From: Candidatus Bathyarchaeia archaeon
GTDB lineage: Archaea > Thermoproteota > Bathyarchaeia > 40CM-2-53-6 > CALIRQ01
Reading direction: 5' to 3'
DNA: 45,631 nucleotides
Assembly (NCBI GenBank): GCA_038843675.1
Contig: JAWBRV010000011.1
Location: 1 to 45,631, forward strand
Within the stretch, counting starts at the first letter, position 1, and every line of letters starts with the position of its first letter. Under the pieces are notes generated by a model. That model was not told the origin of the DNA. It did not search any database and saw nothing but the letters and a program-made list of their open reading frames with translations. This document shows, piece after piece, positions 16,873-43,404 of this stretch. Made by a program: the position numbers and the translations under genes.

Positions 16873-16873
16873 T

Positions 16874-20096: not shown

Positions 20097-20123
20097 TCCG
20101 CATCCCAGCCGGGGGAATCGACC

Positions 20124-21623
20124 CTAACCCCTACTGATCTCCCCCAGGACTTCCCCATCTGGGGAGACCAGCTGGATCGAAAGAGGCATTTGCCCAACCG
20201 CATGCGTCGCGCAGGAGAGGCATGGGTCGAAGCACCTTATCGCATGCTCCACGTGGTTCAATATGCCCTCATCGAACCTCCCGTTCCTTATCCTCTTGGA
20301 GGCGACCTCCTTTATGGCCAAGTTCATGCCCATGTTATTGAAGACCGTAGAAACGATCAGGTTCGCCTTCCTTATCGTCCCGTCCCTGTTCACCCAATAA
20401 TGATGGATCAAGGTCCCCCTTGGCGCCTCTATGACGCCCACTCCCTCCTCGTTCTCGATCTCCCTCGATTCGTTCCAGATTTCCTTGGAGCATATTTCCT
20501 CATCCTGTAGGAGCTCCTTCGCCTTTTCGGCCGCGTGGAGCATCTCAATGGCCCTAGCGTAATGGTAAAATATGGTCCGATCCACCAAGCCGTTCTCCCC
20601 CATCGCCTTGAACTCCTTGAACTCCTCCTCGGCCAAGGGAGTTGGGATGCGATCCGCGACGTTCAGCCTCCCCAGCGGGCCTACCCTCAGCGAGCCCTTC
20701 GGGAACCCCGCCCATCTATAATATGGGAATTTCAGATACGACCAATCCTCGACCCTCTCCCCTATGATGGATAAATAGTCGGATGGGTTGAAGCCGTCTT
20801 CTATTATGTTGCCCCTCTGGTCCTTTATCCTGAGTTCCCCATCGTAAAATTCCAAGGCCCCATCCCGCCCAACCAAGCCCATGTTATATGTCCTCACCGG
20901 GATCGCTTCCTCCTGCTTCAGGCAAGCGTCCTTCACGAGCCCTATCGTGGACCTCGCGTTCTCGATAACGCCATCGATCTGCGCCAAGAGCGCATCCCGT
21001 TTCTCGGGCTGTAGCATCCCATTGACCCCTCCCGGAATCGCGAAGGTTGGATGGACCCTCCTCCCGGCCAAGGCCTCTATAACCTCCTGCCCAAACTTGC
21101 GCAAGGCCACCCCCCTCCTAGCCAGCTCGGGCCTGCTCTCGAGCAAGCCGACTATGTTACGCCTCTCCATTTCATAATCGAACCCAAGCACTAGGTCGGG
21201 GAGGGAGAGGTAGAAGAGGCTCAACGCATGGGATTGGATCATTTGGCCCATGTGAAGTAGGAGGCGGAGTTTCTTGGCCGGGCCGGGTATGTCGATGCCC
21301 AAGATCGCGTCCCCGGCCTTCGCCGATGCCAAGCTATGGCTGACGGGGCATATCCCGCAGATCCTCGATGTTATCACGGGCATCTCCCAAACCAATCGCC
21401 CCTCGCAGAACTTCTCGAAGCCCCTTACCGATACGACGTGGAACTTGGCATCGGCCACGTTCCCATCCCTATCTAGGACTATGGTTATCTTCCCGTGGCC
21501 CTCGATCCTAGTCACGGGGACCCTTATCTCCTTCTCCATTCCGCCGGCCGCGCTGGAGTTTTGGGATCCCATCTCAAGCGCCCTAGTTTCAGCGCCCTTC
21601 CCCAAATCGATCACACCCCTCAT
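20124..21623 (-). CDS. hoxH: HoxH-like [NiFe]-hydrogenase large subunit (group 3)
   Basis: A 499-aa catalytic subunit for H2 oxidation or formation. The N-terminal motif [10 protein letters not shown] (Cys about 89/92) and C-terminal DPCLSCATH (Cys about 468/471, His 474) bind the Ni-Fe site. About 25 residues follow His 474, so it needs an endopeptidase, which is not in the window. The start ATG 21623 overlaps the small-subunit stop (ATGA); this gives about 28 residues before the usual start [18 protein letters not shown], and ATG 21539 is a real alternative. Together with the short HoxY-like subunit and NuoE/F/G-like genes upstream, it fits a bidirectional NAD(P)-linked (group 3d-like) enzyme, but it also resembles Mvh/Hyd large subunits. 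A tree is needed to settle the subgroup. Confidence 0.9.
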
Positions 21624-22168
21624 TCGAAGCTCGCCATCTCGCTTGGCAGGATCGGGATCCTCCCCTCCAGTAGCTCCTTCATGGCGTATAGGAGGGCCTT
21701 GGGGCTGGGCGGGCATCCGGGGATGTGCGCATCTACCCCGACGACGTTGCCCACGGCCTTCACCTTATCCAATAGCGGCGGCACGTATTTGGACCTCGGG
21801 ACCTTGCCATCCACGACGCTCTCAGTCCCGACGTATACCCTGGAGAGGATCTCTTCCTTATCGAAGAGATTCCTATAGGACGTTATCCCGCCGAAGCAAG
21901 CGCAATCGCCTATGGCCACTAGGATCTTGCATTTTTCCCTGAACTTCCTCAACTCTTCCTCATCCTCCTCCGTCGCCACCGCGCCCTCGACGATGCCGAC
22001 GTCGACTTGGATGTGCCCCTTCACATCCGTTAGGGGCGGGGACTTCACGATCTCGATCCTATCCAATAGCAGCTCCACCAATGCCTCATCCAAATCCAAG
22101 AGGGACATGTGGCATCCAGCGCAACCAGAGAGCCATAAAGTGGAAACCTTCACCTTGGCCACGGCCAT
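21620..22168 (-). CDS. hoxY: HoxY-like [NiFe]-hydrogenase small subunit (proximal cluster only)
   Basis: A 182-aa small subunit that should pass electrons from the Ni-Fe site through one proximal [4Fe-4S] cluster. Visible ligands are [10 protein letters not shown] (about 14-23), IGDCACFGG (about 87-95) and [12 protein letters not shown] (about 143-154). The medial and distal cluster domain of Mvh/Hyd small subunits (about 250-325 aa) is absent, as in HoxY. The next carrier must therefore come from the NuoG/HoxU-like partner. ATG 22168 overlaps the nuoG-like stop (TGATG); GTG 22171 is an alternative. It is followed directly by the large subunit with a 4-nt overlap. Confidence 0.9.
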
Positions 22169-24198
22169 CACCTCTTTGGCCCCTCCCTAACCTCTACCCC
22201 GATCCCCTCCCCGGGCGGGATCGGGATCTCCTTGCCCAACCTCCTCGAAAGCTCCGCGAGGACCTCCGCCTCCCCGATCACGCCCCGGGGCGGCTCCAAG
22301 ACCCTCTTGGCCAAATGCCTCCTCCCATCTGGGCCTATCAACTGTCCCCCCCTCTCCAGCCAAGTGGTAGCCGGGATGACGACGTCGGCGATTGAGATCA
22401 CCGGGGAGCGATACGCGCTTTGTATTATGAGGAAGTCGGGCTTGAGGTCGGATAGATATTCGGCATCGATGGAGCTATCATCGCCAATAAGGGCGTATAC
22501 GATCCTCGGGCCCTTCCCAAATCGGCTCGGGATCCCCTCGGCGCTCGTCACCATGAGGCGCCAAGCCCCTATGGTATTCGAGCTCGGCTTGATTGAGATT
22601 ATGCCGAATCTCCCGTTCATCCTCTCCTTTCCCTTGGCGATATCGAATAAGGCGCTAACGGCCTTGGAGCCGCCCGCTTTGACGAGCTCAGCCCCATAGA
22701 TTATGACGCATCGCTTGGAGGATCTCAGGATCTCCGCCGCGGAGCGAAGGGCATCGATCGCCACGCCGCATCCCCTCGCGACGTCCTCGAGATCAGTCTG
22801 ATCCCCCCTGATGGCCTTAGAGATCTCCCCCACGAGGATCGCCTCGGAGCCGGGCTTGGGTCTTAGGAAGACGTCGGCCAATTCCCCAAGCGGATCCTCG
22901 CCCGGATTAACGACTATCAGCCTCGCATTGCCCCTTCGAACGGCCCTCCTTATTTTCGAATGGATGGGCTTCTGCACCTCGAATGGGAGATCGACCGAGA
23001 GCAGGCAATCGACCCCTTCGATATCGTTGAAGGCGCATTCCGCATCCTCCCAAGACCCGTATGGGGCCCTCGATAGGCCTATGGAGTATTCGGATTCCTC
23101 CTCCACAAAGTGTCCGAGCTCCACCCATGAGCCCTGCGAGCTCTTGGATATAGCCCTGCTCCATTCGCCATCGAACGTATCCAAGTACATGGTGCCCAAG
23201 ACGTCGAGGGCGAACTTCTTGAAGAGCTCTAGAACCTCATTCGGGTACCTCGCTGAGGCGAGGCATAAGACGTTTGAGCCATTGGCCCTCAGTTCCTCCA
23301 CGGCGCGCCTCAATGCCTCCTCCATCGAGCACTCCCTGAGTACCTCGCCCTCACGAACCATTGGCCTCAGGATCCTAGCGCGGCCGTTATGGAGGATATC
23401 GAACCGCCCAATCCTGCATAGTTGAGCCCTGAAATCCTCCAATTTGGGGCCCTCTACCCTCACGGGGTTTCCATCCTTGACGTACACGATGATCGGGCAC
23501 CCGAGGCCGCACTCTTGGCAAATCGTTTCGATCGCTTGGCAATCCTTCCGCTTGAACTTATAGGAGGAGAGCTTATCGAATATGGCTCCGGTGGGGCATA
23601 CTTGCATACATAGCCCGCAGGAGATGCAAGGAGATTCCCCGAGGGGCTCGCCCAATCCGGCCGCCACCAAGGTCCTGCTTCCCCTCCTCCAGAGATCTAG
23701 GACGTGGAGGCCGACGATCTCATCACAAGCCCTTATGCATCTGCTGCATAGAATGCAGCGATTATGCTCGATCGCCAAGTATTCATGGCTGGAGTCGATG
23801 GGCAGCTTCGGGTTGAGCATAGCAAGCGGCACGTTATACATTTGGAACTTATAAGCGAGGCTTTGGAGCTCACAATCTCCGCTCTTCTCGCAAAACATGC
23901 AATAATGGTTCCTCTCCGCGAATAGGAACTCCAGCATCCTCCTCCGATATTTGTTGAGGCTATCCGTATTGGTCCTCACGACCAAGCCCTCCCTAGCCGG
24001 GTATGTGCATGCGGTGTTCAGCTTCTTCTCTCCCTCTATCTCTATGACGCAGAGTCTGCACGCTCCGATGGGCGTTAGGCATTTTAGATTGCAAAGGGTC
24101 GGGACATCTATGCCATTCGCTAGACATACATCTAGGACCGTATCGCCCTCCTTCCCCCTCACTTCCTTTCCATCTATTTTCAAATGTATCTCCTTCAT
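22168..24198 (-). CDS. nuoG: NuoG/HoxU-like Fe-S protein with a degenerate formate-dehydrogenase-like domain
   Basis: A 676-aa electron-wire subunit. The N-terminal [2Fe-2S] site uses Cys at about 36, 47, 50 and 64 (LCNLKC, GACRLC, TACTYP). Then come the His-Cys3 site HYCMFCEKSGDCELQ, two [4Fe-4S] sites (CILCSRCIRACDEIVG and CISCGLCMQVCPTG) and a molybdopterin-protein Fe4S4 site (TICQECGLGCPIIVYVKDG with LCRIGRF). The remaining 420 residues follow the fold of formate dehydrogenase (LASARYPNEVLELFKKFALD). Where the active Cys or Sec would stand, the sequence reads TFDGEWSRA, so catalysis on formate is unlikely. As in complex I NuoG it should relay electrons, here between NuoF and HoxY. It is longer than HoxU (about 240 aa). 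Confidence 0.88.
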   Translation of the reverse strand: MKEIHLKIDGKEVRGKEGDTVLDVCLANGIDVPTLCNLKCLTPIGACRLCVIEIEGEKKLNTACTYPAREGLVVRTNTDSLNKYRRRMLEFLFAERNHYCMFCEKSGDCELQSLAYKFQMYNVPLAMLNPKLPIDSSHEYLAIEHNRCILCSRCIRACDEIVGLHVLDLWRRGSRTLVAAGLGEPLGESPCISCGLCMQVCPTGAIFDKLSSYKFKRKDCQAIETICQECGLGCPIIVYVKDGNPVRVEGPKLEDFRAQLCRIGRFDILHNGRARILRPMVREGEVLRECSMEEALRRAVEELRANGSNVLCLASARYPNEVLELFKKFALDVLGTMYLDTFDGEWSRAISKSSQGSWVELGHFVEEESEYSIGLSRAPYGSWEDAECAFNDIEGVDCLLSVDLPFEVQKPIHSKIRRAVRRGNARLIVVNPGEDPLGELADVFLRPKPGSEAILVGEISKAIRGDQTDLEDVARGCGVAIDALRSAAEILRSSKRCVIIYGAELVKAGGSKAVSALFDIAKGKERMNGRFGIISIKPSSNTIGAWRLMVTSAEGIPSRFGKGPRIVYALIGDDSSIDAEYLSDLKPDFLIIQSAYRSPVISIADVVIPATTWLERGGQLIGPDGRRHLAKRVLEPPRGVIGEAEVLAELSRRLGKEIPIPPGEGIGVEVREGPKR

Positions 24199-24205
24199 CC
24201 CCCGA

Positions 24206-27200
24206 TCACTCCGTTTTCAGATCGCACCTCAGGCATCTGCTGGCCTCCTCGATGGCCCTCTCCCTATCATAGTTCTTCATAACCTCCTCGAACGTCTTAA
24301 CCCTCCTCTCCAGCGGTATCTTAACGGGCTCCGCCCTTGGCTTCTCGGTTATCTCCTCATCGGGAGGCGGAACCGATGGGATCTCGATCTCCTCGGCCCC
24401 ATACCTAACCTCTAGGGCTCTCTCCATGCCCTCCAAGAAGGCCTTTATCGAGAAGGCAGCCCTCTTCCCAGCAGCCATTGCCTCCGTGACGGTCGCCGGA
24501 CCCGTTACGGCATCGCCGCCCGCGAAGACCCCCCTGCGGCTCGTCATTAATGTCCTCGGGTCGACCGAAACCAATCCCCCCTTGGTCAATTTAACACCGG
24601 CCCTCTCCAAAAATGCCAGATCCGGAGCTTGTCCAATCGCCTCTATTACGGAATCGACCTCGAACGCGAACTCCGATCCCTCTATCGGCTCGGCCTTCCT
24701 CCTCGCGCTCCTATCGAACTCCCCGAGGCGCATCCTGACGAGCCTTATAGCCTTCACCTTGCCCCCTTTGCCGATAATCTCCACCGGGGTGGTTAGGAAG
24801 TGGAACTTCACCCCCTCCTCCTCCGCGGCGACTATCTCCTCCTCTATGGCCGGCATATCCTTCCTCTCCCTCCTATAGAAGAGGTGGACCTCTGCGCCCT
24901 TCCTAAGGGCCACTCTGGCCGAATCGATCGCGGCGTTCCCTCCACCTATAACGGCGACCCTTTTGCCGATCTTCACCTCCTCGCCGGAGTTCACCCGCTT
25001 GAGGAAATCCAACGCGTCGTAAACCCCCTGCAAATCCTCGCCGGGGATCCCGAGCTTGATGCCCCTATGGGCGCCGGTTGCTATGAAGATCGCCTTATAT
25101 CCCTCCGAGAAAAGCCTCTCTATATCATCCACTCGGGATTTGGTCCTTATCTCCACCCCAAGCTTCTCCAGCTCCCGGATCTCCTTTTGGAGGATGTTCT
25201 TGGGCAAGCGGTATTCCGGAATGCCCCATCTAAGGAGTCCGCCGGGAGCCTCGAGGGCCTCGAATACTACCGCCTTATAGCCCTCCAAGGCCAAATAATA
25301 GGCGCACGTTAAGCCGGCGGGGCCGGCGCCTATTATGGCGACCTTCTCCCCCCTACCCTCCTTGGCCTTGGGGTTATACTCGATCCCATGCTCAAGAGCG
25401 TAATCGGAGACGAACCTTTTCAGATGCCTTATGGAAATGGGCTCGTCTATCTGGCTCCGCCGGCATTTGCCTTCGCAAGGCGCATGGCAAACCCTGCCGC
25501 AAACCGATGGGAACGGCAACTCGGCCTTTATCAGCCGATAGGAATCCTCGAGCCTCCCCTCTTTTATCAACGCTATATAGCCGGGCACATCCAAGCCCAA
25601 GGGGCATACGTGCTGGCATGGGGATTCGAAGAGCGCTTGGCAAACGGCCGCGGGGCACCTCTTCTCGAGGATGTGGGCCAAGTACTCATCCCTGAAATAC
25701 CTAAGGGTCGTTAGGACCGGGTTCGGGGCGGTTTGGCCGAGACCGCAAAGCGATGTCGCCTTTATCATGAGGGCTAAATCCTCCAAGAGGCTCAAGTCCT
25801 CAACCGTGCCCTCCCCGCGCCTGATCTTATCGAGCAATTGCAACATCTGCGGTATCCCAGCCCTGCAAGGGGTACATTTGCCGCAGGACTCGTCCTTGGT
25901 AAACTCGAGGAAGAACTTCGCGATATCCACCATGCAATCGTCCTCATCGAGGACGACGAGGCCGCCGGAGCCCATTATCGCGCCGAGTGCGTCCATTGTT
26001 TCATATTCAACTGGAGTATTCAAATGCTCGGCCGATAGGCATCCGCCGGATGGTCCCCCTATCAAAACGGCCTTGAACTTCTTCCCGCCCTTGGGTCCGC
26101 CCGCTATATCGAGCACCAAAGTCCCTAATGGTGTGCCAAGGGGTACCTCAACTATGCCGCTCTTCGTCGCCTTCCCAACTAGGCAGAAGGTCTTGGTCCC
26201 CGGGCTTCTCTCGCTGCCCACCTCCCTGAACCATTGGGCCCCATATAGGATTATCGCCGGCGTTATGGACAGCGTTTCTACATTATTGATCACGGTTGGC
26301 TTATCCAAGAGACCCTTCTGGGCTGGGAACGGGGGCCTGGGCCTCGGGGATCCCCTCTTCCCCATTAGCGATGCCAACAGGGCCGTTTCCTCGCCGCAAA
26401 CGAAGGCACCGGCCCCGAGGCAGATCTCGATGTCGAAATCGAATTTCGTGCCCAATATGCCCCTGCCCAAAAGCCCATAGCGCCTAGCCTGCTTTATGGC
26501 ATGTTCCAATGTCTCCACGGCCAAGGGATATTCGGCCCTGACGTAGATGTAGCCCTTGCTGGCCCCTATGGCATATCCGGCTATCGCCATCCCCTCTATA
26601 ACGGAGTGAGGGTTTCCCTCCAGAACTGCTCGGTTCATGTAGGCCCCTGGATCGCCCTCGTCTGCATTGCAAACCACGTATTTCTGATCCCCATATGCGG
26701 CCCTAGCGAACTTCCACTTCAGCCCTGTCCTAAACCCGGCGCCGCCTCGCCCCCTCAGCCCGGATCTATCAATCTCGTTTATGACATCCTCCGGACTCAT
26801 CTCCGTTATGGCCTTCGCCAAAGCCAGATATCCATCCCGGGCAATATAATCCTCTATATTCATGGGATCTATGTCTTGGTTCCTCAGGACCCTCCTGACT
26901 TGGAATTTGACGAATGGATCGTCCGGATTCAATAGGTAATCCTTGACCGGTTGGCCTCCGGCCAAATGCTCCTCGACTATACTCCAAGCCCTATCCGGCG
27001 TCACCTCCTTATACGTTGCCGCTTCGCCGGAGGGCAAGATCACGGTGATGTTGGGCTCCATGCTACACATGCCTATGCAACCGGCCTTCGAAAGAACGAC
27101 CCTATCCCCGAGGCCCCTAGCGCTTATCTCATCATGGAGCCTTTTCCAAACCTCGAACGCGCCAGCGGAGATCCCGCATGTCCCCAAGTGGACCTTTACC

Positions 27201-27304
27201 CTGATCCTCCTGTCCGACGATTGCTTCCTCAGGATCTCCCCCCTAAGTCTCTTTAGATCCTCAGGGGAGCGGAGGAACTTATCTTGAACTTCCGCCTTAA
27301 GCAT
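24206..27304 (-). CDS. nuoF: NuoF fused to GltD/NfnB-like FAD reductase (NAD(P)H module)
   Basis: A 1032-aa flavoprotein. Residues about 35-125 are a thioredoxin-like [2Fe-2S] domain (HLGTCGISAG, KAGCIGMCSMEPN). Residues about 130-560 are NuoF: SGLRGRGGAGFRTGLKW binds FMN, GAGAFVCGEETALLASL binds NADH, and ESCGKCTPCRAGIPQM with SLCGLGQTAPNP binds the N3-type [4Fe-4S] cluster. Residues about 565-1032 are a GltD/NfnB-like half: cysteines CQHVCPLGLDVPGYI and CGRVCHAPCEGKCRR, FAD loop VAIIGAGPAGLTCAYYLALE, and NAD(P) loop VAVIGGGNAAIDSARVAL. Such fusions occur in some bacterial NADH-dependent bifurcating enzymes. Two flavin sites and two pyridine-nucleotide sites are thus present. It overlaps nuoE by 8 nt. 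Confidence 0.9.
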   Translation of the reverse strand: MLKAEVQDKFLRSPEDLKRLRGEILRKQSSDRRIRVKVHLGTCGISAGAFEVWKRLHDEISARGLGDRVVLSKAGCIGMCSMEPNITVILPSGEAATYKEVTPDRAWSIVEEHLAGGQPVKDYLLNPDDPFVKFQVRRVLRNQDIDPMNIEDYIARDGYLALAKAITEMSPEDVINEIDRSGLRGRGGAGFRTGLKWKFARAAYGDQKYVVCNADEGDPGAYMNRAVLEGNPHSVIEGMAIAGYAIGASKGYIYVRAEYPLAVETLEHAIKQARRYGLLGRGILGTKFDFDIEICLGAGAFVCGEETALLASLMGKRGSPRPRPPFPAQKGLLDKPTVINNVETLSITPAIILYGAQWFREVGSERSPGTKTFCLVGKATKSGIVEVPLGTPLGTLVLDIAGGPKGGKKFKAVLIGGPSGGCLSAEHLNTPVEYETMDALGAIMGSGGLVVLDEDDCMVDIAKFFLEFTKDESCGKCTPCRAGIPQMLQLLDKIRRGEGTVEDLSLLEDLALMIKATSLCGLGQTAPNPVLTTLRYFRDEYLAHILEKRCPAAVCQALFESPCQHVCPLGLDVPGYIALIKEGRLEDSYRLIKAELPFPSVCGRVCHAPCEGKCRRSQIDEPISIRHLKRFVSDYALEHGIEYNPKAKEGRGEKVAIIGAGPAGLTCAYYLALEGYKAVVFEALEAPGGLLRWGIPEYRLPKNILQKEIRELEKLGVEIRTKSRVDDIERLFSEGYKAIFIATGAHRGIKLGIPGEDLQGVYDALDFLKRVNSGEEVKIGKRVAVIGGGNAAIDSARVALRKGAEVHLFYRRERKDMPAIEEEIVAAEEEGVKFHFLTTPVEIIGKGGKVKAIRLVRMRLGEFDRSARRKAEPIEGSEFAFEVDSVIEAIGQAPDLAFLERAGVKLTKGGLVSVDPRTLMTSRRGVFAGGDAVTGPATVTEAMAAGKRAAFSIKAFLEGMERALEVRYGAEEIEIPSVPPPDEEITEKPRAEPVKIPLERRVKTFEEVMKNYDRERAIEEASRCLRCDLKTE

Positions 27305-28515: not shown

Positions 28516-29613
28516 ATGGGCTTGGGTTTCGAAATGGAGAGGCGCAGGATTCAGTTGGTTGGGCGGTCCACGTTGACCGTTTCCCTGCCGGCCAGTTGGG
28601 TCAAAAGGGTTGGGCTTAAGAAGGGGGACCTCGTGCTTCTCTCCCCCGAGAAGGATGGTTCGCTGAGGATATTCCAAAGCCCGGGAGTGGCCACCAAGGA
28701 CATTTCGAGCACCTTGATAATAAATTCCGATCTTTGCCGGGACAAGGGCCTCATTGGGAGGCTGATAACCGCAGGCTATGTCAAGGGATTCGATGTCATA
28801 AAGATCGTTTCGCCGAATAGGATCGATGGGGAGAGCCTCGAGGCCATCCGCGAGGCGGAGATCAAGTTGATCGGGCTCAGCATAATAGAGGAAACTCCAT
28901 CCAGCGTTGTGCTCCAATGCTCCATGAATCCCGCGCTCTTCCCAATGGATGTGGTGATCCATCGCCTCTATTCCCTCTTCTCCACTATTTTGGACGATGC
29001 GCTCAAGGCCCTGATGGATTCCAATGTCGAATTGGCCAAGGAAGCCCAGAGGCGAGAACGGGAGGCCAATAGGATCTACGCTCTGATCCTGAGGCTTTTG
29101 AACCAAGCCCAAGCGAATCCGGCTATATCCCAAAGGATCGGCATATACGACTCCGGGAGCATCCTTTCCATAGTCCTCATCGCAAATGTCTTGGAGAGGA
29201 TGGCGGACTGGGCCAATAAGGTAGCCGGGGATGTCATAAGGATAGAGGCTTCAGGAGGATGGGTGAGCGATAGGATCAAGGCCCGAATATGGGAGTATAG
29301 TAATAAAATAAAGGGCGTTTGCGATATGGTTATGAAGAGCGCGTTCAATTACGACAGCAAGATGGCGAATGCGGCCATAAACCTATTCGAGGAATACTCA
29401 AAGGAGGCGTACGATATAATCGATGACCTACCGATTGAGAATATTTACCATGGATTCGGGGAATTGAGGCACATCGTCCTAGCCCTCCATAGGATCGGCG
29501 AAATATCCATTTCGATAGCAGAGGCCGCCATAGACAGCGCCGTGGAAAAGGATGGTTTATGCAAAATCGAAACGCGCGGGCCGGATTCTAGGGATGCTGA
29601 TGGAATTGAATGA
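28516..29613 (+). CDS. PhoU-domain regulator with AbrB-like N-terminus
   Basis: A 365-aa archaeal PhoU-family protein. Residues about 8-50 (RRIQLVGRSTLTVSLPASWV, then LKKGDLVLLSPEKDG) form a SpoVT/AbrB-type DNA-binding or dimer domain. The rest is helical with two PhoU repeats (HRLYSLFSTILDDALKAL, ANVLERMADWANKVAGDVIR, ELRHIVLALHRIGEISISIA). E-x3-D-type metal-binding residues occur in the second part. In bacteria PhoU controls phosphate uptake; the archaeal AbrB-PhoU proteins are less well understood. ATG 28516 lies about 26-36 nt after a TATA-containing palindrome. It may regulate the two divergent hydrogenase operons, an inference from location only. Confidence 0.82.
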   Translation: MGLGFEMERRRIQLVGRSTLTVSLPASWVKRVGLKKGDLVLLSPEKDGSLRIFQSPGVATKDISSTLIINSDLCRDKGLIGRLITAGYVKGFDVIKIVSPNRIDGESLEAIREAEIKLIGLSIIEETPSSVVLQCSMNPALFPMDVVIHRLYSLFSTILDDALKALMDSNVELAKEAQRREREANRIYALILRLLNQAQANPAISQRIGIYDSGSILSIVLIANVLERMADWANKVAGDVIRIEASGGWVSDRIKARIWEYSNKIKGVCDMVMKSAFNYDSKMANAAINLFEEYSKEAYDIIDDLPIENIYHGFGELRHIVLALHRIGEISISIAEAAIDSAVEKDGLCKIETRGPDSRDADGIE

Positions 29614-29878
29614 ATCAATACACGAGGATTGGGAGGTGAAGCTCAGCGGCAGGGTCAAGGGCCCCATCATAACCTACAGGACCGCTTCCGGCCTCAGGAC
29701 CTTGTTCACCTTGATCGCGGATTCTGGGGAATTTTCCGTCGTATATGATGGCTTGGCGCTCATAAGGGAGGGGGAGGAGGTATTGGTGAGCGGCTTCAGA
29801 GGGGCATCGGATTTCGCGATAGTATGTTGCGAAATGGCCGATCCGAGGGGCAGAAGGCTCGATATCGCAAACTTATGA
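29600..29878 (+). CDS. Small OB-fold-like protein, unknown
   Basis: A 92-residue protein starting at ATG 29600 inside the end of phoU, so it is translationally coupled to it. The sequence is mostly beta (WEVKLSGRVKGPIITYRT, LRTLFTLIADSGEFSVVYDG, EEVLVSGFRGASDFAIVCCE). The run of strands with a G-x-V-x-G start looks like an OB fold as in nucleic-acid-binding proteins. I do not recognise a family. It lies between PhoU and a 98-aa unknown, upstream of hdrCBA, and may be part of the regulatory part of that locus. Confidence 0.55.
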   Translation: MELNESIHEDWEVKLSGRVKGPIITYRTASGLRTLFTLIADSGEFSVVYDGLALIREGEEVLVSGFRGASDFAIVCCEMADPRGRRLDIANL

Positions 29879-29879
29879 G

Positions 29880-30176
29880 GTGCCGATCGAAACGACGCCC
29901 CTTAGATGTGCCTTCCTCCTCGGCTGGAGCCTCGCTCAGGCCATATATCGGGATTCGAGCCCATATGAGGTCACCATAGATATAAACGCGATCAAGGTCT
30001 GCCTCGGGGCCTTGGGGCTCGACGATCCGAACTTGATCGGGATCTTGGATGGGGCCCTTGAGTTCATAAGGGGCAAGGTTTCCTCAGGAGAAGAGGTTTC
30101 CAAAGCGGACCTTGAGCGCTTGAGGAAGGATTTGCTGCGGTGCGAGGGCCTGATAAGGGAATTGTTGAATTTATGA
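29880..30176 (+). CDS. Helical protein of 98 residues, unknown
   Basis: The frame starts at GTG 29880, one base after the previous stop. It is helical with a positively charged tail (CAFLLGWSLAQAIYRDSSPY, LDDPNLIGILDGALEFIRGK, DLERLRKDLLRCEGLIRELL). No motif is recognised. It is the last gene before the hdrC promoter and shares its operon with phoU and the OB-like gene. The absence of motifs leaves its job open. Confidence 0.55.
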   Translation: MPIETTPLRCAFLLGWSLAQAIYRDSSPYEVTIDINAIKVCLGALGLDDPNLIGILDGALEFIRGKVSSGEEVSKADLERLRKDLLRCEGLIRELLNL

Positions 30177-30198: not shown

Positions 30199-30220
30199 TA
30201 CACAAAAGTTTATATGTGTA
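30199..30220 (+). promoter_or_regulatory. TATA box inside an inverted repeat before hdrC
   Basis: TACACA at 30199-30204 and TGTGTA at 30215-30220 form a perfect 6-bp inverted repeat with a 10-nt spacer that holds the TATA box (aagtttatat, 30207-30214). An 8-nt direct repeat tatatgtg follows (30211-30226). The ATG at 30243 is close downstream. A repressor bound here would block TBP, so this is a good operator candidate. Confidence 0.6.
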
Positions 30221-30242
30221 TATGTGAAAATAATTATCGCCA

Positions 30243-30965
30243 ATGGGCCGAATGGACGTCATGATAGACGACGCGTTGGAGAAGGCCTTCAGGGAGAGGG
30301 TAGCCAAGAAATTCGGCATGAAGAAGGGCAGCATGAGCTTGGCCATAGAGGAGGCGATCCGCGAATGGATGAAATCCGAGGAGGAGGCCAAGGGGGCCGA
30401 GGAGGCCAAGGCCAAAATTCCCTTGGAACATGCAGAGGAGGCTCCATTGCCCTCGCCCGAGTTCGCCAAGGAGATAATAAGGGCGAGCGGGGAGAACATC
30501 AACAAATGCATCCAATGCGGGAACTGCGTCGCATCTTGTCCATCCGGCAGGATCACGGCCTACAATTCGAGGAGGATAATCAGGAAGGCGTCCATGGGAT
30601 ATAAGGATGAAGTCCTGAGGAGCATTGAACTCTGGCTCTGCACAACTTGCTACACATGCGTCGAGAGATGTCCTCGGAAGATAGACGTCGTGAGCGCGAT
30701 ACTAACCATGCGGAACATAGCCGTTGAGAACGGGTGGATGTTGGATCCCCATAAAGTGGTTTCGATGAACTTGATAAAGACGGGTCACGCGGTCCCGATC
30801 GATCAGGCTACGAGGGAGAAGCGCAAGGAGCTGGGCCTCAGCGAGCTCCCGCCGACGGTCCACCAATATGAGGGGGCCCTTCTCGACGTCCAACAGCTGT
30901 TAAAGGAAACGGGGTTCTCCGATTTGATAGAGAAGGCCCAGCCGCAAAAGGCGGCATCGGCCTAA
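30243..30965 (+). CDS. hdrC: HdrC with N-terminal ribbon-helix-helix-like domain
   Basis: A 240-aa Fe-S subunit of heterodisulfide reductase, carrying electrons from HdrA to HdrB. Two [4Fe-4S] sites are complete: CIQCGNCVASCPSG (Cys 89, 92, 95, 99) and CTTCYTCVERCPR (Cys 133, 136, 139, 143). Residues 1-45 are unusual: MDVMIDDALEKAFRERVAKK, then MKKGSMSLAIEEAIREWMK, which has the strand-helix-helix form of RHH DNA-binding proteins, followed by a charged linker. Normal HdrC proteins are about 185 aa and lack this. The domain may bind DNA, perhaps the inverted repeat just upstream, or serve to hold partners together. This is the first gene of hdrCBA-mvhDGA. Confidence 0.88.
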   Translation: MGRMDVMIDDALEKAFRERVAKKFGMKKGSMSLAIEEAIREWMKSEEEAKGAEEAKAKIPLEHAEEAPLPSPEFAKEIIRASGENINKCIQCGNCVASCPSGRITAYNSRRIIRKASMGYKDEVLRSIELWLCTTCYTCVERCPRKIDVVSAILTMRNIAVENGWMLDPHKVVSMNLIKTGHAVPIDQATREKRKELGLSELPPTVHQYEGALLDVQQLLKETGFSDLIEKAQPQKAASA

Positions 30966-30981
30966 GATCGAGGCGTTTGGC

Positions 30982-31872
30982 TTGGGAAAGAAATACGCTA
31001 TATTTCTCGGGTGTTTGATTCCGAATAGGTATCCCGGCATAGAGGCCGCCGCTAGGAAGGTCCTGCCGAGGATCGGCATAGAGCTGGCGGATATGAGCGG
31101 GGCTTCTTGCTGCCCGGCCCCAGGGGTCGTTAAATCCTTCAGCCGCCCCGCTTGGCTAGCCATAGCGGCTAGGAACCTTTGCATAGCCGAGGAGATGGGT
31201 TTGGATGTGTTGACCTTTTGCAATGGTTGCTATGGAACCCTCCTCGATGCGAACCACGACCTCAAGGCCGATAAGGCGCTTAGGGATTCCGTTAATTCGA
31301 AATTGAAAGAGGTGGGGAAGGTCTTCAAGGGATCGATTGGCGTAAGGCATCTGGCCGAGGTCCTGATGAAAGAGGTAACCCCCGAGGGGATAAGGAGGGC
31401 CGTCACGAAGCCCTTGGGCTTGAAGGCCGCCGTCCATTATGGTTGCCATTTGATAAAGCCCAAGGTCTTAAGGGAATGGGTGGGCAGCGCCGAGAGGCCG
31501 ACCTTCTTGGATGTGTTGACGGAGGCCCTCGGTGCCGAGAGCGTGGAATGGGAGGACAAGATGGCGTGTTGCGGGGCCGGCGGCGGCGTTCGCTCCGCGG
31601 TCTTGGACGTTTCCTTGAGGATGCTGAACCGGAAGCTCCTTAGCGCCAAAGAGGCGGGCGCCGATTTCATACTAAACGTCTGCCCCTTCTGCCACCTCCA
31701 ATTCGATAGGGGACAGATCGAATTGCAAAGGCTATACGGCTTACAACCATACAACATGCCGGTTCTCCATTACGTCCAAGCCCTCGGCCTAGCCATGGGC
31801 TACGGCCCCCATGAGTTGGGCGTGGATATGAATTTCGTTGGGGCGGATCGCGTATTGAGCAAGCTCTCCTGA
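30982..31872 (+). CDS. hdrB: HdrB, catalytic disulfide-reducing subunit
   Basis: A 296-aa subunit that holds the noncubane [4Fe-4S] clusters where the disulfide (CoM-S-S-CoB in methanogens) is cleaved. Both CCG motifs are complete: FLGCLIPNRYPG with SCCPAPGVVKSF and TFCNGCYG, and HYGCHLIKP with ACCGAGGGV and NVCPFCHLQFD. It starts at TTG 30982, 16 nt after hdrC. No methanogenesis genes are in the window, so the natural disulfide is unknown. The 3' end is followed after 15 nt by hdrA. Confidence 0.93.
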   Translation: MGKKYAIFLGCLIPNRYPGIEAAARKVLPRIGIELADMSGASCCPAPGVVKSFSRPAWLAIAARNLCIAEEMGLDVLTFCNGCYGTLLDANHDLKADKALRDSVNSKLKEVGKVFKGSIGVRHLAEVLMKEVTPEGIRRAVTKPLGLKAAVHYGCHLIKPKVLREWVGSAERPTFLDVLTEALGAESVEWEDKMACCGAGGGVRSAVLDVSLRMLNRKLLSAKEAGADFILNVCPFCHLQFDRGQIELQRLYGLQPYNMPVLHYVQALGLAMGYGPHELGVDMNFVGADRVLSKLS

Positions 31873-31887
31873 TGGTTGGTGATTTTG

Positions 31888-33864
31888 ATGAACGATCCCG
31901 AAGGGGATTTGAAGATAGGCGTATATGTATGCCATTGCGGCAAGAACATAGCCGATGTTGTTGATGTTAAAGAGGTTGCCGATTTCGCCTCAAGGCTGCC
32001 GGGCGTTGAGGTGGCAAGGGATTACCTCCACATGTGCGATGACGTTGGCCAAGAGATGATATCGAATGATATAAGGGAGTTGGGCATAAATAGGGTCGTT
32101 GTGGCGGCTTGCTCCCCGAAGGTCCATGAGCTCACCTTCAGGGACACCTTGAGGAAGGCAGGGCTTAACCCATACCTGTTGGAGATAGCCAACATAAGGG
32201 AGCAATGCTCTTGGGTCCATCGCTCGGATCCGGATAGGGCAACGGAGAAGGCCAAGGACCTCGTCAAGATGGCCGTCGCCAAGGCGAGGTGGTTGATCCC
32301 ACTCGAGACGAGGACCATTGAGGTGGCGAGGAGCGCGCTGGTGATAGGCGGAGGGATCGCAGGCATTCAGGCCGCGTTGGATATAGCGGATAATGGCTAT
32401 CAAGTATACTTGGTGGAGAAGAGCCCGAGCCTCGGCGGGAGGATGGGGCAATGGTCCAAGGTCTTCCCAACGATGGATTGCGCGGCTTGTATATTAACAC
32501 CAAAGATGGTCAGCGTTGCACAGCATCCCAATATCAAATTATTTACAAACTCGGAACTGATCGAAGCCTCGGGATCATTGGGAAATTTCTCGGTCAAGAT
32601 AAGGAAGAGGCCAAGATATGTAAATGAGGATAAGTGTACAGCATGCGGGCTTTGCGCCCAAAAATGCCCCGTAAGGGTCCCGAACGAGATCGACTTCGGG
32701 ATGAGCTCTAGGAAGGCCATATACATAACATCCCCGAACGCAGTCCCGTTGGCCTATTCCATAGATGGGGAGAATTGCCTCTACCTTAAGAAGGGGATCT
32801 GTAGGGTTTGCGAAAGGATCTGTGAAGCAAAGGCGATAGAATTCGATCAAAAGGAGGAAATCCTCGAGCTGAAGGTGGGCAGCATCATAGTCGCCATTGG
32901 ATACGATCCCTTCGACCCTACACCGTTGGAGGAATATGGATTCGGAAGATATAAAGATGTTATAACAGGACCGATGCTGGAGCGCATGACCGATCCCATG
33001 GGCCCGACCGGCGGCGCTATCTTAAGGCCCTCGACGGGCAAGCCGCCTAGAAAGGTCGCTTTTATACAATGCGTTGGATCTAGGGATGCGAGGTTCAATT
33101 TATATTGCTCCAGGGTTTGTTGCATGTACGCCATAAAGGATTCATTGATAATAAAGGAGCAATCCCCCGAATCCGACGTATACATATTCTATATGGATAT
33201 AAGGGCCTTCGGAAAGGGATATGAGGAGTTTTACCTAAGAAGCCAAGAGGCTGGGGTGAAGTTCATAAGGGGAAAGGTCTCAAGCATACGCGAGGATCCG
33301 AGGACCCATGAGCTCGTGCTCAGATATGAGGATACCCTGTTGGGCACAGCGCTCGAGGATTCCTTCGACCTAGTGGTCCTTTCGGTTGGGCAGGTCCCAA
33401 GGGCGGATACGGAGGCCATCAGCAAGATCTTGGGCATACCTCGCAGCACGGATGGATTCCTCATGGAGGCCCACCCGAAGCTGAGGCCCAATGACGCTGT
33501 GGTCGATGGCATCTACCTCGCAGGATCGGCCCAGTACCCGAAGGATATCCCGGATGCTGTCGCCCAAGCCAGCGGGGCCGCGGCTAGGGCCCTGATACCG
33601 CTCAGCATGGGCCGAGTGGAGGTGGAACCCCTAAGCCCCTTGATAAACGAGGATCGATGCGGTGGCTGCGGAGTTTGCATCAAGCTCTGCCCATATGGGG
33701 CCTTGAAGCTAGAGGCAAGAGGCGATAAGATGGTGGCGAAGGTGGATGAGGTGCTTTGCAAGGGCTGCGGCACCTGCGCGGCCGCCTGCCCATCGGGCGC
33801 GGCGAGGCCTAGGATGTTCACGGAGGAGCAGATCCTCTCGATGATAAGCTCGGCCGCTAAGTAG
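31888..33864 (+). CDS. hdrA: HdrA of the Mvh:Hdr complex
   Basis: A 658-aa bifurcating flavoprotein, probably splitting H2 electrons from MvhAGD between ferredoxin and HdrBC. It has IGVYVCHCGKNIADVVDVKE, the FAD loop ALVIGGGIAGIQAALDIA, and cluster sites CTACGLCAQKCPVRVP, ICRVCERICEAKAIEF, VGSRDARFNLYCSRVCCMYA, CGGCGVCIKLCPYGAL and CKGCGTCAAACPSGA. ATG 31888 has ggtgat a few bases upstream; the reading frame is also open from TTG 31876. It is collinear with the HdrA at 18114-20096. Both are full-length single HdrA proteins, with this one in the standard HdrCBA-MvhDGA context. Confidence 0.95.
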   Translation: MNDPEGDLKIGVYVCHCGKNIADVVDVKEVADFASRLPGVEVARDYLHMCDDVGQEMISNDIRELGINRVVVAACSPKVHELTFRDTLRKAGLNPYLLEIANIREQCSWVHRSDPDRATEKAKDLVKMAVAKARWLIPLETRTIEVARSALVIGGGIAGIQAALDIADNGYQVYLVEKSPSLGGRMGQWSKVFPTMDCAACILTPKMVSVAQHPNIKLFTNSELIEASGSLGNFSVKIRKRPRYVNEDKCTACGLCAQKCPVRVPNEIDFGMSSRKAIYITSPNAVPLAYSIDGENCLYLKKGICRVCERICEAKAIEFDQKEEILELKVGSIIVAIGYDPFDPTPLEEYGFGRYKDVITGPMLERMTDPMGPTGGAILRPSTGKPPRKVAFIQCVGSRDARFNLYCSRVCCMYAIKDSLIIKEQSPESDVYIFYMDIRAFGKGYEEFYLRSQEAGVKFIRGKVSSIREDPRTHELVLRYEDTLLGTALEDSFDLVVLSVGQVPRADTEAISKILGIPRSTDGFLMEAHPKLRPNDAVVDGIYLAGSAQYPKDIPDAVAQASGAAARALIPLSMGRVEVEPLSPLINEDRCGGCGVCIKLCPYGALKLEARGDKMVAKVDEVLCKGCGTCAAACPSGAARPRMFTEEQILSMISSAAK

Positions 33865-33874
33865 GTGAGCGGGA

Positions 33875-34309
33875 TTGGTTGATGATCGAAAGGGGGATTG
33901 GTTCGAGCCGAAGATACTTGGGTTCCTATGCAATTGGTGCTCCTACGCAGCAGCGGACCTAGCTGGGATGAGCAGGATGGAGTATCCGCCGAACATCAGA
34001 TGCATAAGGGTCATGTGCTCGGGAAGGGTCGAGCCGAGCTTCGTGCTCGAGGCCCTCAAGGAGGGCTACGATGGGGTCCTCATAGCCGGTTGCCATCCGC
34101 CCTCCGATTGTCATTACCAAAGCGGGAACCTGAAGGCGAGGAGGCGCTATTACCTGCTCCGGAAACTCCTGAAGGAGTTCGGCATCAATCCGGATAGGGT
34201 TAGGTTGGAATGGGCATCGGCATCAGAGGGCCAAAGATTCGCCGAGATAGTGAAGGACTTCACCGAGCGCCTGAGGAGGTTGGGCCCGAACCCCCTGAAG
34301 GTGAGCTAA
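33875..34309 (+). CDS. mvhD: MvhD, [2Fe-2S] linker subunit
   Basis: A 144-aa protein linking Mvh hydrogenase to HdrA. The five-cysteine pattern is present: FLCNWCSYAAADLAG, RVMCSGRVEPSF and AGCHPPSDCHYQSGN. Note the Pro-Pro-Ser insertion relative to the FlxD-like copy (CHPGDCHY). It starts at TTG 33875, 10 nt after hdrA; no in-frame ATG serves better. The next gene, mvhG, begins two bases after its stop. Confidence 0.9.
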   Translation: MVDDRKGDWFEPKILGFLCNWCSYAAADLAGMSRMEYPPNIRCIRVMCSGRVEPSFVLEALKEGYDGVLIAGCHPPSDCHYQSGNLKARRRYYLLRKLLKEFGINPDRVRLEWASASEGQRFAEIVKDFTERLRRLGPNPLKVS

Positions 34310-34310
34310 G

Positions 34311-35288
34311 TTGGGGCGGGATGTATTGAATTTGGCGATTGGGTTGGGGGCCACCTGCTCGGGATGCGATGTCACCATAGTGGACCTTGCGGAGTATCTC
34401 CCCAAGGTCTTAAGCTCAGTTAACATAGTGTTCTGGCCCACCGCCGCCGATCTGAAGCTCAAGGACCTAGAGGCCATGGGGGATGGGTCCATAGACCTCG
34501 CCCTTTACCATGGGGCGATAGTGAACGAGGAGAATGCGGAGATAGCAAGGTTGCTCAGGAGAAAATCCAAGTTGATGGTGGCCTTTGGATCCTGCGCCTG
34601 CTTCGGCGGGATACCGGGCTTGGCGAACCTAGCCGCCAAGGACATATTGCTCGAAACGGTTTACGGGACCCCTAGCACGGATAACCCAAGGGGGATCAAG
34701 CCGCAGGGCGAGGCCGTCGTGGGCGGGTATAGGATGGCTGTGCCAAAGAGGCTCGATGCCGTCCTGCCCTTGAGCGGGGTAGCGGAGGTCGATTATTCAA
34801 TACCGGGATGCCCCCCGCAGACCTCCCAAGTGAGGGATGCCTTCAAGGCCATATTATCCGGCAATCTTCCGCCCAAGGGCTCCATCATCGGCCCGGCCAA
34901 GAACCTTTGCGACGAATGTCCGAGGAAGAGGGAGGAGAAATCAATACCCAAGATAGTGAGGTCACATGAAATAATCGCGGATCAGGAGAGATGCCTCTTG
35001 GATCAGGGCCTCCTCTGCATGGGCCCGGCCACGAGGGCGGGCTGCGGCGCCAAATGCATCAAGGCCAATATGAGGTGCGAGGGATGCATGGGGCCCCCGG
35101 ATGGGGTCAGGGATCAGGGGGCCAAGATGCTTAGCACCATAGCCTCCATCCTCGGGTTGGAGGGCGAGGATAGAATGTCCGAAGAGGAGGTCGCGAGGCT
35201 CATGGAGGGCATCGCGGATCCCGTGGGCCTCCTATATCTATTCAGCTTGCCCTCCTCGATCCTGCGCAGGAAGCTGGGGGAGGTGTGA
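34311..35288 (+). CDS. mvhG: MvhG, [NiFe]-hydrogenase small subunit (group 3c)
   Basis: A 325-aa small subunit carrying three Fe-S clusters from the Ni-Fe site to MvhD. Proximal ligands are GATCSGCDVTI (Cys 16/19), GSCACFGG and YSIPGCPPQTSQV. The medial/distal domain is present (LCDECPRKRE, RCLLDQGLLCMGPATRAGCG and MRCEGCMGPPDG). It starts at TTG 34311 and its stop overlaps the GTG of mvhA. Length and cluster set contrast with the short HoxY-like subunit at 21620-22168. Confidence 0.92.
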   Translation: MGRDVLNLAIGLGATCSGCDVTIVDLAEYLPKVLSSVNIVFWPTAADLKLKDLEAMGDGSIDLALYHGAIVNEENAEIARLLRRKSKLMVAFGSCACFGGIPGLANLAAKDILLETVYGTPSTDNPRGIKPQGEAVVGGYRMAVPKRLDAVLPLSGVAEVDYSIPGCPPQTSQVRDAFKAILSGNLPPKGSIIGPAKNLCDECPRKREEKSIPKIVRSHEIIADQERCLLDQGLLCMGPATRAGCGAKCIKANMRCEGCMGPPDGVRDQGAKMLSTIASILGLEGEDRMSEEEVARLMEGIADPVGLLYLFSLPSSILRRKLGEV

Positions 35289-36760
35289 AAGCCATGAGGG
35301 AGAAAGGGGAGATCGAGATATATCCGGCGAGCAGGCTCGAGGGCCATGCCAAGATAAGTATATTCTTGGACGAGAGGGGATCCGTTAGGGACGCGTTCTT
35401 CCAAACGCTTGAGCTCAGGGGCTTCGAGGAGTTCTGCAAGGGAAGGCTCGTGGAGGAGATGCCTAGGATAACGCCCAGGATTTGCGGCGTCTGCCCTTGG
35501 GCCCATCATTTGGCCTCGGCGAAGGCGGCCGATGCCGTCTACGGGGTGGAGCCGACCGAAACGGCCGAGAAGGTAAGGGAGATGGGCTATTCCGCCTTCT
35601 TCGTCCACGATCACCTCCTCCACTTCTATCTCCTAGCGCTCCCCGATTTCGTCCCGGGCCCCCATGCCCCGCCCGCCGAGAGGAACGTGGTCGGCCTCTT
35701 GAACAAGGTGGGCCAAGAGCTGGGCGGAAAGCTCCTGAGGGCCTTCGGATATGCCCATGAGATACAGGAGATCGTTGGCGGCAGGTCGACCCATCCCGTG
35801 TTCTCCCTCCCCGGAGGCATTTCCAAGCCGATCTCCGAGGAGGAGAGGGCGAAGATCGATGGGATGGCCAAGTATCTGCTCGAGTTCTCCGAATCCACCC
35901 TGGAATTGTTCAAAAAAACCTTATTGAAGGACGAGAAATACTCCAAGATGATCCTCGAAGATAAGAACGTCAATCGGGTCAATTCCCTCGCCATGGTTGG
36001 GGAGGGGGATTCGCTTTCGTTGCTCCACGGAAAGCTCAAGGCCATCGACCCGGAGGGGAGGACCATAGCCATCTTCGAACCGAAGGATTACCTAGACCAC
36101 ATATCGGAGCACGTTGAGCCTTGGACCTATTCGAAGTTCACATTCCTGAAATCTGTGGGATGGAGGGGCCTCGTGGATGGCAAGGGAAGCGGCGTCTATA
36201 GGGTGGGCCCATTGGCCAGGTTCAATGCGATCGAGAGCATATCGACCCCCAAGGCCCAAGGGGCCTTTGAGGAGATGTTCGAGATCCTCGAGAAGCCTTG
36301 CCATTCGACATTCGCCTATCATTGGGCCAGGGTGATCGAAACGCTATACGCGGCCGAGAGGCTGATGGAATTGATCGAAGACCCGAGCATAACGAGCGGC
36401 GACATCAGGAACATACCGGCGGGCCCGCGGGGGAGGGGGGTCGGCGTTGTGGAGGCCCCTAGGGGCACCTTGATCCATGATTATACATCGGATGGGGAGG
36501 GGAGGATCAGGGAGTTGAATTTGATCGTCCCAACGACCCATAACAATTCGGTCATATGTATGAGCGTAAGGAATGCGGCCCGAGATCTGATAAAAGCTGG
36601 CTCGGTCGATGAGGGACTGCTCAACGAAGTGGAGATGGCCTTCAGGGCCTACGATCCATGCCTCGCTTGTGCAACGCATACAATGCCCGGGCAATTGCCC
36701 ATGAAGATCGAGATATTCGATAGTCGAGGGGTGCTCCTCAAGGAGATATCGAGGTTCTGA
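35285..36760 (+). CDS. mvhA: MvhA, [NiFe]-hydrogenase large subunit (group 3c)
   Basis: A 491-aa catalytic subunit. The Ni-Fe ligands are in RICGVCPWAHH (Cys 67/70) and DPCLACATHTM (Cys 459/462). About 27 residues follow the His of the second motif and should be removed by a maturation protease that is not found here. It starts at GTG 35285, overlapping the mvhG stop (GTGA); ATG 35294 is a possible alternative. It ends the hdrCBA-mvhDGA operon, so the six gene products form the classic Mvh:Hdr bifurcating complex: H2 to ferredoxin plus a disulfide. Confidence 0.93.
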   Translation: MKAMREKGEIEIYPASRLEGHAKISIFLDERGSVRDAFFQTLELRGFEEFCKGRLVEEMPRITPRICGVCPWAHHLASAKAADAVYGVEPTETAEKVREMGYSAFFVHDHLLHFYLLALPDFVPGPHAPPAERNVVGLLNKVGQELGGKLLRAFGYAHEIQEIVGGRSTHPVFSLPGGISKPISEEERAKIDGMAKYLLEFSESTLELFKKTLLKDEKYSKMILEDKNVNRVNSLAMVGEGDSLSLLHGKLKAIDPEGRTIAIFEPKDYLDHISEHVEPWTYSKFTFLKSVGWRGLVDGKGSGVYRVGPLARFNAIESISTPKAQGAFEEMFEILEKPCHSTFAYHWARVIETLYAAERLMELIEDPSITSGDIRNIPAGPRGRGVGVVEAPRGTLIHDYTSDGEGRIRELNLIVPTTHNNSVICMSVRNAARDLIKAGSVDEGLLNEVEMAFRAYDPCLACATHTMPGQLPMKIEIFDSRGVLLKEISRF

Positions 36761-41332: not shown

Positions 41333-42619
41333 TCATCCCACCTCGACCAAATGGACCGAGCATGAGATGCATGGGTCATAAGCCCTCACCAGCATCTCGC
41401 ATTTGAGGATCGCCTCCTCCGGGGATATCTCGCGGAGCTCCGGGGCTAAGGCTTCGAGATCCCTTTCTATGTTCCTCGAGTTGTGGGCGGTAGGCGTCAC
41501 AACATCGGCTTTTTTTATCATCCCCTTTGAATCGAAGGAGTAGCTATGATAAAGGATGCCTCTTGGGGCCTCCACTATCGCGAACCCATCCCCTGCCTTG
41601 ACCTCGAAGGATTCCTCAATGACGGGCCCCTTTTCAATCCTTAGGTTCTCGATTATGGAGACGCTATCGTCTATCGCGTTAATGAGCTCTATGGCCCTGG
41701 CGAGCACAGCCATGAATGGATTGAAGACCGGGGGCTTGAAGCCAACCCTCTTCGCCGCCTCCTTCGCATCATCGGAGAGCTTATCGAAGTTCAGGTTAAC
41801 CCTCGCCAATGGGCCAACCAAGAACGAATCGCGTCCCCTCACGATCGATCGCTTGGTCCAAGAGTAATCTGTATGCGTCTCCTCAATATGGGCCCTATAC
41901 TCCCTCGGGGATATGTCCAAGCCCTCGGTCGATATAAGGCGCCCCTCGTTTATGGCATATTGATCCTCCTGCGATAGCGCGATGTGCTCACATCTCCTCT
42001 CGAAATCCGGTATATCCAAATCGGCCACGAAATCAACGCCCTCCATCGCGAAGCCCTTCATCGCGAGCAGCTCCATCTTGGCCCATTCCAGATCGGCCTT
42101 GGTCGGTATTCTCGTGAACCCGTTCACGACGAGCGTTACGGGATGTATCGCCCTCCCGCCAAACCTCTCAGTTATATCATCACCAACCTTCTTCAGCCTT
42201 ATGGCGTTTCTGACCAAATCCGGATGCTCGCTCGCCATGGAGATAATATCCGGCTTCCCAAAATAGTCTGGGACCGAGAGGAAGTAAACGCTCAGCGCAT
42301 GGCTCGATATATGGTTCGCATAATTCAACAGCTTCCTCAGGGCCCTAGTTTGATCATCCACCTCGATGCCCAATCCGTCCTCGACGGCTTCTAGGGCCGC
42401 GACCTGATGAGGCACGTGGCATATGCCGCATATCCGGGACGCTATCTCATGGGCCTCGCCGCATCTCCTCCCTATCATGAAGGACTCGAAGAAGCGCGGC
42501 GGCTCGAAGACCGCCAACTTGGCTTCTTCGACCCTCCCGCCCACGACCTTTATCAATACCTCCGCTTGGCCCTCAATCCTGGCCACGTAATCGACCCTTA
42601 TCTCCCTAACTTGGCTCAT
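41333..42619 (-). CDS. hydA: HydA, [NiFe]-hydrogenase large subunit (group 3b)
   Basis: A 428-aa catalytic subunit of a cytoplasmic NAD(P)-linked hydrogenase. Ligand motifs are RICGICHVPHQ (Cys 64/67) and DPCISCSVH (Cys 417/420, His 423). Only five residues (LVEVG) follow that His, a very short maturation tail like that of Pyrococcus HydA. ATG 42619 overlaps the hydD stop (ATGA). The order hydB-hydG-hydD-hydA is that of sulfhydrogenases (H2 with NADPH, and S0/polysulfide reduction). It ends the operon, 81 nt before the cupin gene. Confidence 0.93.
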   Translation of the reverse strand: MSQVREIRVDYVARIEGQAEVLIKVVGGRVEEAKLAVFEPPRFFESFMIGRRCGEAHEIASRICGICHVPHQVAALEAVEDGLGIEVDDQTRALRKLLNYANHISSHALSVYFLSVPDYFGKPDIISMASEHPDLVRNAIRLKKVGDDITERFGGRAIHPVTLVVNGFTRIPTKADLEWAKMELLAMKGFAMEGVDFVADLDIPDFERRCEHIALSQEDQYAINEGRLISTEGLDISPREYRAHIEETHTDYSWTKRSIVRGRDSFLVGPLARVNLNFDKLSDDAKEAAKRVGFKPPVFNPFMAVLARAIELINAIDDSVSIIENLRIEKGPVIEESFEVKAGDGFAIVEAPRGILYHSYSFDSKGMIKKADVVTPTAHNSRNIERDLEALAPELREISPEEAILKCEMLVRAYDPCISCSVHLVEVG

Positions 42620-43395: not shown

Positions 43396-43404
43396 AACCC
43401 CCAC

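Follow-up and report, generated by a model that had tools for sequence, protein, structure and literature searches.

Trifunctional PutA of E. coli and Salmonella carries an N-terminal ribbon-helix-helix (RHH) domain, joined through a linker to a redox enzyme, and represses its own genes (PMC5293562). Its DNA affinity changes about 2-fold upon flavin reduction, and switching occurs mainly by relocation to the membrane (PMC5293562). When the E. coli PutA RHH domain was placed on a bifunctional PutA, in the engineered chimaera EcRHH-RcPutA, both DNA binding and a PutA-like oligomeric state were conferred (PMC5293562). Heterodisulfide reductase (Hdr) complexes are built from two copies of HdrABC (PMC12350162), and HdrC is seen in the solved MvhADG-HdrABC complexes (8RVU, 5ODC). 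Little is known of how anaerobic archaea adjust the quantity of bifurcating Hdr-Mvh complex to their electron flow.

The locus described here brings an RHH domain and HdrC together. It lies in a window (the whole stretch of DNA analysed) of 45,631 nucleotides from a Bathyarchaeia archaeon, where the ORF 30243-30965 (+), of 240 residues, heads an hdrCBA-mvhDGA operon. We refer to its product as RHH-HdrC. The resemblance to PutA is in logic only, namely a redox enzyme with an RHH domain at its N-terminus, a linker and, as proposed here, autogenous repression. The body here is HdrC and not a proline dehydrogenase/P5C dehydrogenase; the flavin enzyme PutA is unrelated to it, uses membrane relocation as its main switch and is proven to bind DNA, a property only predicted for RHH-HdrC. 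No paper names both heterodisulfide reductase and ribbon-helix-helix in the full text of 5.39 million open papers, a set that leaves subscription papers outside, and the combination of RHH and HdrC appears to be a new domain architecture made of separately known parts.

An earlier note, made from the letters of this DNA, had read the first 45 residues (30243-30377) as an archaeal RHH domain, followed by a linker and two normal ferredoxin cluster sites that canonical HdrC has without such a segment. The ORF and both peptides quoted there match exactly, and each of these statements was borne out. Residues 1-43 (30243-30371, (+)) are an RHH domain, as judged from Pfam RHH_6, profile matches to solved RHH proteins, homologues and model helices; the layout is a strand at 3-9, a helix at 10-24, a turn and a helix from 33. 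The linker, KSEEEAKGAEEAKAKIPLEHAEEAPLPSP, covers residues 44-72 (30372-30458, (+)); its approximately 29 residues include 8 acidic and 4 basic ones, it was without any match, and residues 53-66 have pLDDT values under 50 when the full-length protein is modelled. The HdrC body (residues 86-229, 30498-30929, (+)) was delimited with TIGR03290 and chain C of PDB 8RVU/5ODC. Read in this way, a small archaeal RHH regulator gene is joined in frame, via a flexible acidic linker, to hdrC.

The body is a true HdrC, scoring 197 bits with TIGR03290 (curated cut-off 160). HdrC proper begins at about residue 72-86. Two CX2CX2CX3C [4Fe-4S] motifs are present (C89-C99 and C133-C143); in alignments, both of these and the PPT motif of HdrC are invariant or nearly so, and the C-terminal helical part is also present. 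Residues 72-229 align with residues 18-175 of 8RVU chain c (E=1.8e-54), and the operon partners are the same as in MvhADG-HdrABC. Since the match begins at residue 18 of the solved subunit and at residue 72 here, RHH-HdrC exceeds the HdrC of solved Hdr complexes by about 54 residues at the N-terminus, and this extra length is the RHH domain plus the linker. The nearest HdrC bodies, none of them with an RHH domain, are from Thorarchaeota (59%) and a few other Bathyarchaeia (55-57%). HdrC of Methanobacteriaceae also has an N-terminal extension, so that about 140-200 residues precede the first cluster (L077, L083, L086, L089, L102), but these extensions are low-complexity, Glu/Lys-rich and without visible RHH pattern; their starts are uncertain because the ORFs were read stop to stop.

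Several lines of evidence identify the N-terminal domain. The Pfam match is to RHH_6 (PF16762), over residues 4-53, with E=3e-5 and 25.0 bits, which is suggestive by itself, being under the curated cut-off of 27 bits. A family profile was built from 16 sequences (the segment and 15 relatives), 12 of which match RHH_6 individually. The top three matches of this profile in the whole PDB are all RHH proteins: 2k6l (E=3.7e-4) and, more weakly, 2kel (56B) and 2k29 (RelB). The AlphaFold model of residues 1-60 (pLDDT 64, from an alignment of two sequences) has residues 1-9 extended and helices at 10-24 and 33-57. The full-length model, which is also of low confidence in its N-terminal part, places the beginning of helix 1 at residue 5. 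A Foldseek search with the low-confidence domain model gave three RHH DNA-binding domains, that of PutA among them, as the only PDB matches at E<=10; with E of 4-10 these are not significant alone. The order strand-helix-helix is accompanied in the alignment by the alternation expected of the strand, M4/V6/I8 pointing inward and R3/D5/M7 outward, the strand itself being not formed in the monomer model.

The segment was matched in 87 of 398 sampled genomes of the phylum. Many of the matches are stand-alone RHH proteins, about 50 residues long, that are 45-51% identical to residues 1-47 and share the KKG turn and the core. Residues 1-47 of RHH-HdrC thus correspond to an entire small RHH protein, including its start codon (MGRMDVMIDDALEKAF compared with e.g. 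MGKMNIVLKDELEERF). Within the same genome, the closest relative is a VapB-type RHH protein (43% identity to the segment, E=2.5e-9), whose gene (L002, 1372-1713 (-)) overlaps a PIN-domain gene (975-1388 (-)) in a VapBC arrangement. At the loci examined, the stand-alone and VapB-type proteins are unfused to redox proteins, in contrast to the present case; neighbours of the stand-alone genes are transposase-like genes, methyltransferase genes and others, with no hdr genes. At five of these loci (L038, L042, L046, L052, L057), the small RHH gene is divergent from a transposase-like gene with a SWIM-type zinc-binding motif, and at four others (L034, L040, L058, L059) a DNA methyltransferase-like gene directly follows the intact RHH gene. 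In L145 (1861-3039 (+)), an RHH start is joined to a DNA methyltransferase-like ORF, and a frame-shift seems to interrupt the RHH part. A scan of viral contigs gave one close relative of the RHH segment (L174), but no match for the full RHH-HdrC protein; PHROGs gave no match.

The fusion is not an artefact of assembly, as the same uninterrupted ORF, 90% identical, is present in a second MAG, that of another species of the genus (G002). Gene order is also common to both: an AbrB/PhoU-type gene upstream, then hdrC, B, A, mvhD, G, A. In comparison with G002, dN/dS is about 0.11 for residues 1-45, 0.10 for the linker and 0.07 for the HdrC part, indicating purifying selection, and the five differences in residues 1-45 (M4I, I8M, K14R, K23R, K44R) are all conservative. 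A wrong start codon is unlikely in view of this codon-level selection and of the promoter position described below.

Searches for the same fusion in other genomes, with the RHH query against the 398 phylum genomes and with the full protein against 257 class genomes, retrieved it only in the genome studied here (G000) and in G002. It was not found in the other 255 class genomes (162 of the 257 had an HdrC-like match), and 30 further HdrC loci of the class gave no RHH domain with the RHH profile (best E=0.24). By eye, none was present at the N-termini of the best 80 HdrC loci from one genome per species of 84,980 species. Other large ORFs carrying the RHH segment were rejected as candidates, being VapB-type, read-through of a non-coding ORF, RHH with another small domain, or the apparently frame-shifted methyltransferase join. 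A third species of the genus (G001) has an mvhA 88% identical and shows no RHH-HdrC, but is uninformative on the fusion, since its contig ends before hdrB/hdrC. Among the genomes searched, the fusion is apparently confined to one genus of Bathyarchaeia.

RHH-HdrC is encoded by the first gene of the operon hdrC-hdrB-hdrA-mvhD-mvhG-mvhA (30243-36760 (+)). It is followed by hdrB (30982-31872 (+); TIGR03288, 413 bits, cut-off 345), hdrA (31876-33864 (+); closest NCBIfam model HdrA2, E=5e-275, under the cut-off of that model) and mvhD (33875-34309 (+); Pfam FlpD, E=2e-55), then by mvhG-like and mvhA-like genes for the small and large subunits of a [NiFe] hydrogenase (34311-35288 (+); Pfam Oxidored_q6, VhuG E=7.5e-65; and 35285-36760 (+); Pfam NiFeSe_Hases, VhuA E=1.8e-106). 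In relatives, this gene set encodes an electron-bifurcating hydrogenase-heterodisulfide reductase. Immediately upstream (28534-30176 (+)) are a gene for an AbrB/MazE-PhoU-type regulator, then two small ORFs without Pfam match, an arrangement conserved in G002; the ORF 29880-30176 is split across two frames in that genome.

A conserved promoter is present at 30199-30242 (+), where ACAAAAG precedes a TATA-like TTTATATG (30209-30216). Compared to G002, this 44-bp stretch upstream of the ATG carries 4 differences, where about 17 are expected at a synonymous divergence of 0.54 (P ~1e-5, simple binomial). As the ATG is about 30 nt from the TATA centre, the hdrC message is probably leaderless or nearly leaderless. 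Tandem 8-bp sites are the targets of RHH repressors such as MetJ. Over the TATA box, at 30211-30226 (+), lies a candidate operator, an 8-bp tandem direct repeat TATATGTG-TATATGTG, which reads TATATGTG-CATATGTG in G002 and is overlapped by an inverted repeat TACACA-N10-TGTGTA (30199-30220). The 8-bp period fits MetJ-type operators and is to be taken as a lead only. No second exact copy of the tandem TATATGTG repeat occurs in the genome, which yielded no further candidate operator sites. When the 66-bp leader is subjected to dinucleotide shuffling, 0.6% of the shuffles contain a comparable tandem, and one place besides this leader has one in the AT-rich stretches of the window. Being short and AT-rich, the repeat may be plain promoter sequence.

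Our tentative reading, to which we give slightly less than an even chance, is that RHH-HdrC controls its own operon in the manner of PutA, through DNA binding at its own promoter. The RHH part would dimerise and the dimer would bind over the TATA box; HdrC present in excess over its partners, or the entire (HdrABC)2 complex, would then hold back further transcription of the operon, in parallel with the repression of put by trifunctional PutA. No redox switch would be needed, since titration by assembly into HdrABC-Mvh would suffice. Autoregulation is made plausible by the RHH homology, the position at the head of the operon, the constrained leader with its unique repeat and the retention of R3, K27 and K28; conservation of the fusion and operon order in a second species and the dN/dS of about 0.11 in the RHH part point the same way. 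It is further favoured by EcRHH-RcPutA, a redox enzyme to which the added RHH domain was enough to give DNA binding (PMC5293562). If true, a catalytic subunit with its own DNA-binding domain would provide a direct feedback route and a second, independently evolved instance of the PutA principle, on an Fe-S protein.

To get insight into which functions the domain may have kept, residues were compared in 43 homologues (43-44 depending on position), non-redundant at 80%. Column patterns assign the hydrophobic strand positions 4, 6 and 8 to the inside, and the polar positions 3, 5 and 7 to the outside, which is the DNA face in RHH proteins. At position 5, the homologues have Arg (13), Asn (10), Lys (8), Ser (5), Cys (4) or Leu, His and Thr (1 each), and Asp in 0 of 43, whereas both RHH-HdrC proteins have Asp at this central DNA-facing residue; the stand-alone and VapB-type relatives carry mostly Arg, Lys, Asn or Ser there. 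The surface residues M7, A11 and A15 are likewise unseen among the 43-44 homologues, and L33 takes the place of the usual Lys or Arg. In contrast, positions 4, 6, 8, 12, 16, 20, 24, 31, 34, 35, 38, 39, 42 and 43 of the core are hydrophobic or small, as in the family. These columns show an intact dimer core together with a change at the centre of the DNA face. The change weakens the case for autoregulation, and a role in oligomerisation becomes nearly as likely as DNA binding.

The domain could thus have turned into a dimerisation or docking module, which pairs HdrC within or between (HdrABC)2 particles or binds another protein, specific DNA recognition being lost; we consider this a serious possibility, if a somewhat doubtful one. 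In its favour, the core is kept while D5 and M7 in the strand and A11 and A15 in helix 1 diverge, and fusion of an RHH domain to an enzyme is known to alter oligomeric state (PMC5293562). Moreover, as Hdr complexes are already (HdrABC)2, with two copies of HdrC (PMC12350162), each particle would contain two RHH copies that could pair if the linkers reach. This reading nevertheless leaves the conserved leader with its tandem repeat unexplained. In addition, R3, K27, K28 and G29 are retained, and the residues presumed to face the DNA have a net charge of +2, inside the family range. The divergence is not extreme either: up to 6 unseen residues occur in other members (family range 0-6), so that RHH-HdrC, with 4, is on the divergent side and no outlier. 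DNA binding is therefore possible, perhaps with a different specificity. A domain that merely dimerises would still be a new way of organising Hdr complexes.

A bolder reading would make RHH-HdrC a one-component regulator: the iron-sulfur subunit of an electron-bifurcating hydrogenase-heterodisulfide reductase would sense the redox or assembly state it is in and adjust expression of the operon that encodes it, as an independently arisen archaeal Fe-S analogue of PutA. We regard this as improbable. The earlier note had suggested an autoregulator sensing electron load. In such a scheme, the [4Fe-4S] clusters of HdrC would relay this load to the RHH domain and alter how tightly it holds the promoter. 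Both parts do stand in one protein heading its own operon, and PutA shows that a redox enzyme can carry an RHH domain, but our analysis of RHH-HdrC found no support for such sensing, and we judge it quite unlikely. The linker is long and of low pLDDT, with no sign of coupling, residues 1-72 are without additional cysteines or cofactor site, and Asp5 occupies the central DNA-facing strand position. Given the small effect of flavin reduction in PutA (PMC5293562), redox control of DNA binding in RHH-HdrC is not to be assumed. That the RHH part is a neutral or near-neutral remnant of a chance fusion which does little, with a normal HdrC perhaps also made from the internal start M43 (30369), fits the restriction to one genus and the GGAGG about 14 nt upstream of this in-frame ATG, but purifying selection on residues 1-45, where all differences are conservative, and a conserved leader directly at ATG 30243 speak against it, and we hold it for quite unlikely.

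The window contains other modules of related type. At 15072-22171 (-), a second pair of HdrA-like and MvhD-like genes lies with a second [NiFe] hydrogenase, whose large subunit is 44% identical to mvhA, and with sulfhydrogenase-like beta/gamma genes; no HdrB/HdrC adjoins it. Next to this hydrogenase, between NuoE- and NuoG-like genes, a 1032-aa ORF (24206-27304 (-)) joins a NuoF-type subunit (Complex1_51K, NADH_4Fe-4S) to a GltD/NfnB-like module of Fer4_20 and pyridine nucleotide oxidoreductase, resembling bifurcating modules of Stn/Nfn type. By ORF reading, a third [NiFe] hydrogenase set, with a sulfhydrogenase (group 3b-like) gene order, is present at 41333-45275 (-).
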